Source: Desulfurellaceae bacterium bin18 (GTDB taxonomy: Bacteria > Desulfobacterota > Binatia > Bin18). From it: a DNA stretch of 64,000 bases. Position numbers and translations under genes: made by a program. How positions within the stretch are numbered: position 1 is the stretch's first letter; each line of letters opens with the position of its first letter. Below, piece after piece: positions 1,861 through 44,447 of the stretch. The notes beneath the pieces are model-generated. The model ran no database searches and was not told where the DNA came from. It saw only the letters and a program-made list of their open reading frames with translations. The DNA lies in contig MPMI01000007.1 in assembly GCA_002238415.1 (NCBI GenBank), positions 62,001 to 126,000 of the forward strand, given 5' to 3'.

Positions 1861-3606
1861 ATGCCAACCCCACTCGAACAATGGGTCGAAGAAACGGCCC
1901 AACTCACGCGGCCAAAAAACATTCACTGGTGTGACGGATCGGAAGAAGAAAATCAACGCTTGATTGAGGGAATGCTCGATGACGGGACTCTGACGGCGTT
2001 AAATCAGGAGAAGTATCCGAACTGTTATTTACATCGGAGTGACCCCAAAGATGTGGCGCGTACCGAGCACCTGACCTTTGTGTGCACGCGGGAAAAAGAA
2101 GACGCCGGTCCGAATAATAATTGGATGGTCCCAGCGGAGGCCAAGGAAAAAGTCGGCGGACTCTTTCAGGGAGCAATGAGAGACCGCACGCTGTACGTCG
2201 TGCCGTACATCATGGGGCCCGTCACGTCGCCCTACAGTCAGGTTGGCGTAGAAATCACGGACAGCCCTTACGTCGCAGCCAGCATGCGTATCATGACCCG
2301 AATGGGTAAGGCCGCGCTTGAGCGGCTGGGTTCGTCAGAGAATTATGTCCAGGGTCTCCATTCGCTTGGAGATCTCAGCCCTGACCGCCGGTTTATCATG
2401 CACTACCCGGAAGACCGTGCGATCTGGTCCATTGGTTCCGGCTACGGTGGGAACGCGTTGCTTGGGAAAAAATGCTTCGCCTTACGCTTGGGGAGCTATA
2501 TGGCGCGTGAAGAAGGCTGGCTGGCTGAGCATATGCTGATCATCGGCATTGAGGAGCCGAGCGGTCGCACAACATATATTGCGGCCGCCTTCCCCAGCGC
2601 TTGTGGAAAAACGAATCTGGCCATGCTGATCCCACCGGAGAGCCAAAAGGGCTATAAAGTCTGGACGGTGGGCGATGATATTGCCTGGATGCATCCCGGA
2701 CCGGATGGACGCCTGTGGGCGATCAATCCCGAGGCCGGGTTTTTTGGTGTTGCGCCGGGAACAAACTCTCACACCAATCCGAATGTCATGGCGACGGTTA
2801 CGAAGAACTCCATCTTTACGAATGTCGCCCTCACCCCGGACGGCACCCCATACTGGGAAGGTCTGGATGGTGGTCCGCCGGCCGAGGCGATCGACTGGCA
2901 GGGCAAGCCATGGACACCCCAGTCCGAGAGTAAAGCCGCCCACCCCAACTCCCGTTTTACCACGCCGGCCCGCCAGTGTCCGGTCATGTCTTCAGAGTGG
3001 GAATCGCCCCAAGGGGTGCCAATTTCAGCCTTCCTCTTTGGCGGCCGACGCGCGGGTTTGATCCCGCTCGTCTGCCAGTCTTTCAACTGGCAGCATGGGG
3101 TGTCGCTGGGTACGACGATGGCTTCTGAAACAACGGCCGCGGCGACCGGAAAGGTCGGAAAGATTCGGCGTGATCCCATGGCCATGCTGCCCTTCTGTGG
3201 CTACAACATGGGCGACTATTTCGGTCATTGGCTCAACATGGGCAAAAAGCTCGCCGATCCGCCGAAAATTTTCCGGGTGAACTGGTTCCGGACAAATCAA
3301 GAGGGCAAATTTCTCTGGCCCGGCTTTGGAGAAAACCTGCGGGCGTTGCGTTGGGTCATTGCCCGGGTCCACGGTGAGGCCGAAGCTCGCGAGACCGAAA
3401 TCGGCTATCTGCCGCATACCAACGATATTGATACGACCGGGATCGATGTCTCGCCAGCGGTGCTTGACGAACTCCTCAGTGTGGACCGGCCAGGCTGGAT
3501 AAACGCCGCGGAGAGGCAACGCGAATTCTTCCAACAGTTTGGAGACCGGCTCCCGCGAGAGCTGTGGCAAGAAAACGCGGCGCTGGATAAACGCCTGCAA
3601 GCCTGA
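1861..3606 (+). CDS. pckG: Phosphoenolpyruvate carboxykinase (GTP)
   Basis: Converts oxaloacetate and GTP to phosphoenolpyruvate, GDP and CO2, at the gluconeogenic branch point in the cytoplasm. The length of 581 residues is close to the usual ~600 of the GTP-dependent family. The P-loop SACGKTN carries the family's catalytic cysteine at about residue 248, and the second kinase motif GDDIAW follows near residue 271. The PEPCK-specific FFGVAPGTN and the C-terminal guanine-binding region with NWFR are also present. It is preceded by a good ribosome-binding site and followed 45 nt later by a cobalamin adenosyltransferase, a pairing that would suit growth on C2 or propionate-type substrates; that link is inference. 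Confidence 0.97.
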   Translation: MPTPLEQWVEETAQLTRPKNIHWCDGSEEENQRLIEGMLDDGTLTALNQEKYPNCYLHRSDPKDVARTEHLTFVCTREKEDAGPNNNWMVPAEAKEKVGGLFQGAMRDRTLYVVPYIMGPVTSPYSQVGVEITDSPYVAASMRIMTRMGKAALERLGSSENYVQGLHSLGDLSPDRRFIMHYPEDRAIWSIGSGYGGNALLGKKCFALRLGSYMAREEGWLAEHMLIIGIEEPSGRTTYIAAAFPSACGKTNLAMLIPPESQKGYKVWTVGDDIAWMHPGPDGRLWAINPEAGFFGVAPGTNSHTNPNVMATVTKNSIFTNVALTPDGTPYWEGLDGGPPAEAIDWQGKPWTPQSESKAAHPNSRFTTPARQCPVMSSEWESPQGVPISAFLFGGRRAGLIPLVCQSFNWQHGVSLGTTMASETTAAATGKVGKIRRDPMAMLPFCGYNMGDYFGHWLNMGKKLADPPKIFRVNWFRTNQEGKFLWPGFGENLRALRWVIARVHGEAEARETEIGYLPHTNDIDTTGIDVSPAVLDELLSVDRPGWINAAERQREFFQQFGDRLPRELWQENAALDKRLQA

Positions 3607-43464: not shown

Positions 43465-44046
43465 TCAGCCCTTATCCGCGTTGGCGTCCAGCAGGTGTTG
43501 CATCTGTGGGTCAAGCTCGACGCCCAACCCATCCGCGAGTCGATTCATAAAGTTGAACACGCAGGTGATGAGGACAATATCGACGACATTCTCCTCACTA
43601 AAACCGTACTGCTGTAAGAACTCGAGGTCTTCCCGTTTCACTGTGTCCGGGGCGCGGGTGAGCTTGAGCGCAAAATCGATCATGGCTCGATCTTGCGCCC
43701 CGAGCGGGGCCTTGTCCGGGTCGGTCTTCAGGTGCCGAACTAAGCTGTGATCGCCCGATTCCATACGCAGCAACTCTGCGTGGGAAGAGCGTCAATAGTG
43801 GCAGCGGTTGATAACAGAAACCGAGGTGGCAATCATTTCTTCGCGCGTACGTCCCAGGGTTGAGGCACCAAACGTGATACCCATATTCATCTGCCACACC
43901 CCGCGTAACGCCTCTGGGCGCAGACCCATACAGGCGATGACATTGGCCACTCGCCCGCCGCTCAGCGGATGTTTGAGGACCCCTTCGTACACCTCTGCGA
44001 GCTGGCCGGTTGCCTCGTCTTCGGCAAATGTTGTCACCCACGTCAT
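43465..44046 (-). CDS. Carboxymuconolactone decarboxylase/AhpD-like candidate selenoprotein (CxxU)
   Basis: A 193-residue protein if the in-frame TGA at 43792-43794 is read as selenocysteine (residue 85). The ATG at 44046 follows AAGGAGGACGAT. The AhpD-type active site normally reads CxxC; here it is C82-H-Y-Sec85, followed by RSSHAELLRME. The two halves are in the same frame and together have the length and motif order of peroxidase-related CMD proteins. Without Sec readthrough the first part would be only 84 residues and lack the rest of the motif. It is likely a thiol-dependent peroxidase or redox protein. A hairpin just after the TGA fits a bacterial SECIS (next entry). Confidence 0.72.
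43759..43786 (-). promoter_or_regulatory. Putative bacterial SECIS element
   Basis: Starting 5 nt after the TGA, TTCC pairs with GGAA, then an internal bulge (C opposite AU), then ACGCAG pairs with CTGCGT around a loop of AGUUG. The apical loop begins 16 nt after the UGA and holds a GU, as in known SelB-binding bacterial SECIS hairpins. The match is by hand. Confidence 0.6.
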
Positions 44047-44186
44047 ATCGTCCTCCTTTTTGGCAATGTTCTGGTTTATAAAGTAAAGACACCCCGGCAG
44101 AAAGATGGGGTGACGGGGTTCGTCAAAAGCACGCTTGCCAGACGGCCTAGGTCCCCCTAGACTGCCAGCCAGACAGCGGAGTACAC

Positions 44187-44447
44187 GTGGCAACAGGCAA
44201 TCAGTTCGGTGGAAGCAGGCGATTCCTGTATCATTGGTTTCGACGGGAGACGGTGTGGCGCGCTCTGAAGGTGGCCGGCATCGTGGGGCCCATCCTGACC
44301 GTGATTAATCAATACGACCTGCTCTTGAATCTCGACTTCTCCGCCCGGTTGGGTTTCAAGACCGCTCTGACCTTCCTTGTCCCGTATAGTGTTTCGTCCT
44401 ATTCTTCCGCCAGGGCCTATATGGACAAAGAGAGAGCCGCTTCATGA
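44187..44447 (+). CDS. NrtS-like nitrate/nitrite transporter small membrane protein
   Basis: An 86-residue protein with two hydrophobic segments separated by a short loop. The pattern RALKVAGIVGPILTVINQYDLL, then the second segment KTALTFLVPYSVSSYSSARAY, is typical of the NrtS family of small nitrate/nitrite transporters. GTG at 44187 is the start. It diverges from the selenoprotein-like gene and precedes a VOC-family gene. Its physiological substrate here is not proven. Confidence 0.75.
   Translation: MATGNQFGGSRRFLYHWFRRETVWRALKVAGIVGPILTVINQYDLLLNLDFSARLGFKTALTFLVPYSVSSYSSARAYMDKERAAS

Follow-up and report, generated by a model that had tools for sequence, protein, structure and literature searches.

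A gene on the minus strand of the 64,000-nucleotide stretch of DNA from the uncultured Desulfurellaceae bacterium bin18 that we analyzed (hereafter the window) almost certainly encodes an antioxidant-type enzyme, an AhpD-like, peroxidase-related selenoprotein of the TIGR01926 family with a CxxU motif, in which sequence comparisons predict that UGA-85 is decoded as selenocysteine (Sec). Such a selenoprotein had been proposed in a preliminary description, and the proposal is now supported by the Sec machinery of the same genome, the conservation of the half of the gene downstream of the TGA, the existence of cysteine-containing homologs and the fit of the downstream hairpin to the bacterial SECIS model. 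The kind of selenoprotein is already known and the window gene adds a member to it. AhpD-like CxxU proteins were first reported in a 2005 survey of the Sargasso Sea, which recovered 27 AhpD-like sequences (PMC1088965), and a marine survey listed 299 sequences of AhpD-like 1 (PMC2398784), which confirms the earlier statement that marine metagenomes had already yielded this class. The family is given as COG2128 in one study (PMC9312934), and an entry 'AhpD-like protein, TIGR01926, CxxU' appears in a 2026 review of prokaryotic selenoproteins (PMC13188914). The window gene shares with these proteins the profile family, the CxxU motif in which Sec stands for the second Cys, and a SECIS element directly downstream; it is set apart from earlier members by its Binatia-type host and its CHYU motif, with no difference in kind found, and existing knowledge of the family chemistry is unchanged by it. 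In the open-access literature we found no account of selenoproteins from Binatota or SAR202.

The interrupted reading frame and the fold of its product

Translation of the minus strand from 44046 to 43465 yields a single frame of 193 codons, MTWVTTF...INRCHY-TGA-RSSHAELLRMESG...DANADKG-TGA, whose sole internal TGA is codon 85 (43792..43794). It thereby bears out the position of the TGA, the placement of both halves in one frame and the family-typical length claimed previously, and together with the profile match defines a predicted AhpD-like selenoprotein of 193 aa with the motif C82-H83-Y84-U85. The final codon, a second TGA (43467-43465), is the true stop, as close relatives terminate at the same site with TAA or TAG. 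The start is preceded by a Shine-Dalgarno sequence, GGAGG (44052..44056, minus strand), 5 nt ahead of the ATG at 44046 (aaaaGGAGG-acgat-ATG), which had been recognized correctly. Table-11 gene calling produces two ORFs, 44193..43792 and 43773..43465, just as the preliminary description had anticipated of automated annotation, and the analysis thus adds a well-supported selenoprotein that such annotation would split. A mechanical scan of the window listed 38 TGA-interrupted frames, among which this gene is, by eye, the only one with a redox motif at the TGA. The genes on either side run convergently or divergently and provide no operon context or functional hint, and neither an AhpC gene nor another gene linked to peroxide was recognized adjoining the window gene. 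Within the genus the flanking genes keep their order, and none of the neighbors of a 77%-identical relative (L021) matched the genes flanking the window gene.

The read-through protein matches the TIGR01926 profile (peroxidase-related, AhpD-like) with 129.7 bits (1e-37), well above the curated cut-off of 81.8, and the Pfam CMD profile with 34.4 bits. It shares a related CxxU domain with the alkylhydroperoxidase-related (seleno)protein family NF041238 (AhpD_rel_CFYUT), but at 75.1 bits it falls below the curated cut-off of 175 bits and is about half the length of those proteins, and hence is not a member. Both sequence and fold match the peroxidase-related proteins 2pfx, 3c1l, 2prr, 6k40 and 2oyo over 140-180 residues; these differ in having Cys where the window protein is predicted to have Sec and in needing no SECIS element. 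In the case of 2pfx and 3c1l the alignment runs through the TGA, with Cys at that column. An AlphaFold model with Cys substituted for Sec has a mean pLDDT of 93.7, and its best match in the PDB is 2prr (TM 0.84), with 2prr, 2pfx and 6k40 all at 0.83-0.84; the AhpD-fold debrominase Bmp8 (6ohi, 6ohj) is also among its fold matches. The TGA falls inside the motif E70-x11-C82-H-Y-U85-x3-H89 in the active-site helix pair (43780..43839, minus strand), which reproduces the Glu-x11-Cys-x-x-Cys-x3-His spacing of Mycobacterium tuberculosis AhpD and Pseudomonas PA0269, although these two are thiol-only proteins and the former is a poor whole-chain structural match. PA0269 has a five-residue proton relay of Glu36, Cys48, Tyr50, Cys51 and His55 (PMC3141380), and the spacing of E70, C82, Y84, U85 and H89 is equal to it, so that Sec corresponds to the latter of the two CxxC cysteines.

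Conservation of the TGA codon and the SECIS hairpin

The nearest relatives of the gene are from Candidatus Binatia bacterium (L017-L020, 90-97% identity), followed by L021, from a groundwater metagenome-assembled genome recorded as Deltaproteobacteria, and by more distant genes of SAR202/Dehalococcoidia Chloroflexota (46-52%). For each relative retrieved we determined which codon aligns with residue 85, and among the 78 distinct sequences this codon is TGA in 64, TGC in 11, TGT in one and another sense codon in two; TAA or TAG was found in none. This restriction of the column to TGA and Cys codons argues against a real stop or an error, which would lack such restriction. The TGA itself is kept in both Binatia-type and Chloroflexota genomes, and the 12 Cys codons, along with 2pfx and 3c1l, substantiate the earlier statement that homologs have Cys at this position. 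The two other sense codons belong to degenerate second domains of L050 and L065, which have lost the first Cys too; each of these loci has paired adjoining AhpD-like domains, the first with a CxxU motif and a SECIS element and the second lacking either Cys. On a tree of 76 rows the Sec and Cys forms swap at least 3 times, and the window gene lies in a well-supported Binatia-type Sec group beside Chloroflexota Sec genes. Two further loci, L040 and L055, each contain an adjoining, co-directional pair of AhpD-like CxxU selenoprotein genes, possibly a selenoprotein operon.

Between congeners dN/dS is 0.04-0.14 downstream of the TGA versus 0.10-0.24 upstream, and is lower downstream in three of four pairs, while the downstream residues R94, K128, D140, L144, G148 and R169 are invariant among 27 rows. 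The portion encoded after the TGA is thus conserved, and its substitution pattern indicates purifying selection. The preliminary description had held that close relatives with the same stop and an unconserved downstream half would speak against a selenoprotein; in the TGA-bearing relatives that half is conserved.

The predicted SECIS core is a hairpin, ACGCAG-AGUUG-CUGCGU (43765..43781, minus strand), delineated by its fold, conservation and covariation. A hairpin downstream of the TGA had thus been recognized correctly in the preliminary description, but its start had been put 5 nt after the TGA, whereas the conserved covarying core begins 10 nt after it. The outer stem of the minimum-energy fold of the sequence from the window, which begins directly after the TGA, was considered as a part of the SECIS element and rejected, as relatives are without it. 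Under the published model for bacterial SECIS elements (PMC13188914) the apical loop has 3-9 nt, with a G within its first two positions followed by G or U, the upper stem has 4-16 bp, 16-37 nt separate the UGA from the apical loop, and the MFE is at most -7.5 kcal/mol. The window hairpin, with a loop of 5 nt (AGUUG) that satisfies the G rule, a stem of 6 bp, a spacing of 16 nt, which is the lower edge of the range, and an MFE of -18.6 kcal/mol, lies within all these limits. The fold of the sequence from the window alone has a z-score of -2.65, and a search of the window against Rfam gave no match.

Numbering the T of the TGA as 1, columns 14-20 pair with columns 24-30, and the G at column 21, in the loop, is invariant in all 50 distinct TGA sequences. 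Across these sequences 96% of the cells are paired, compared with 87.9 +/- 1.0 in shuffles (reached in 0/500) and with at most 67% when the register of the hairpin is slid; 24 cells are changed on both sides, compared with 7.9 in shuffles (again 0/500). Among the 12 Cys relatives only 38% of the cells pair, which is not above shuffles, and by this measure the hairpin is absent from them. One TGA form, L098, which adjoins the Cys-form group on the tree, has a hairpin off the shared register (AGG-CGUU-CCU). Pairing shows most strongly at the codon level, in columns 17 and 27: Ala encoded by GCA or GCG (C at 17) always occurs with Leu encoded by CTG (G at 27), and Gly encoded by GGA or GGC (G at 17) always with Leu encoded by CTC (C at 27); 63 of 63 genes obey this rule. 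Each of the two columns changes 5 times on a tree from whose construction the residue concerned was excluded, and the independent pairs on well-supported branches are in step in 4 of 4 cases, a number too small to reach 0.05 (sign test, p 0.125). Similarly, for columns 20 and 24, GAG occurs mostly with T-ending codons and GGG with C-ending codons (58 of 59 genes). As these synonymous third bases track the amino acid of a neighbor without a protein-level reason, base pairing accounts for the pattern, and the genes provide a clean SECIS set in which the choice among synonymous Leu and Phe codons follows amino-acid changes across the stem.

Selenocysteine machinery and other CxxU genes of the genome

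The genome from which the window derives (83 contigs, 96% complete) contains selA (603 bits), about 240 bases from a single-copy tRNA-Sec gene (70.7 bits, anticodon tca, i.e., UCA) on contig C49, in addition to selB (382 bits) and selD (310 bits). The presence of selA, selB, selC and selD in the same genome removes the objection foreseen in the preliminary description, a lack of Sec machinery. Within the class selA is over the cut-off in 120 of 145 genomes. It is present in 34 of the 37 genomes in which we read a TGA form, and because it is so common in the class as a whole this co-occurrence is not telling alone. Of the three exceptions, G037 has tRNA-Sec with no selA found, whereas in G001 and G126 neither selA, selB nor tRNA-Sec was over threshold; their genes (L059 and L055, respectively) are TGA forms with SECIS-like hairpins nonetheless. 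These two may be incomplete bins or carry foreign contigs, and the window's genome is unaffected. A congener, G018, carries a pair of tRNA-Sec genes separated by about 1 kb (L108, 1497..1592 and 2496..2576).

Seven of the 16 CMD-domain matches in the window's genome contain a TGA, which in every case supplies the U of a CxxU motif; this reveals a Binatia-type genome rich in CMD-family selenoproteins. The six outside the window (L118, L121, L122, L124, L125 and L126), with one TGA each, have the motifs CHYU, CALU, CQLU, CLFU, CNLU and CPYU and stable hairpins downstream.

Predicted mechanism and alternative explanations

We propose that SelB with Sec-tRNA(UCA) would bind the hairpin just 3' of UGA-85 and insert selenocysteine, such that read-through would give the full-length, all-helical protein. 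By analogy with AhpD chemistry, the U85 selenol would replace the C-terminal Cys of CxxC and, aided by the E70/Y84/H89 relay, attack a peroxide or another electrophile; C82 would then resolve U85 as a selenenylsulfide, which a thioredoxin-type dithiol reductant could reopen. That the TGA is instead a real stop, leaving either a pseudogene or a pair of independent short proteins, agrees with the break between the table-11 ORFs but is highly improbable, given purifying selection on the downstream half in relatives and the persistence of the TGA across Binatia-type and Chloroflexota genomes. Termination would also sever the active-site pair, and the downstream TTG at 43773 sits within the hairpin and the active-site helix. 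A sequencing or assembly error that turned TGC into TGA can be dismissed with near certainty, as the same column has TGA in the independent assemblies of L017-L029 and in many whole genomes, and as the TGA is nearly always accompanied by the hairpin, which Cys forms are without. Genome-wide recoding of UGA to another amino acid is hardly credible either, since TGA serves as the stop at the end of this very gene, conserved relatives have either TGA or Cys at this column, and a tRNA-Sec(UCA) is present.

A selenoprotein that performs work other than peroxide reduction is a less remote alternative, though still an unlikely one: it might reductively remove a halogen or another electrophile, as does Bmp8, or act as an adaptor disulfide reductase. 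The fold shared with Bmp8, the several parallel CMD-family CxxU genes of the genome, which suggest different substrates, and the want of a recognized peroxide gene alongside are consistent with it. However, the sequence relatives and the relay spacing are those of AhpD-like peroxidase-related proteins, and Bmp8 fits more poorly (TM 0.68-0.72 versus 0.84), which favors a peroxidase-related selenoprotein with peroxide as its probable substrate. More speculatively, and with little confidence, Binatia may have expanded the CMD/AhpD-fold CxxU selenoproteins (at least 7 here) into a set of selenol enzymes that differ in substrate, of which some would be reductive dehalogenases or reductases of other electrophiles rather than peroxidases. 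The same genome also has a SelW-like (Rdx) gene whose motif reads CAAU (L129, G000:C68:5325-5540).
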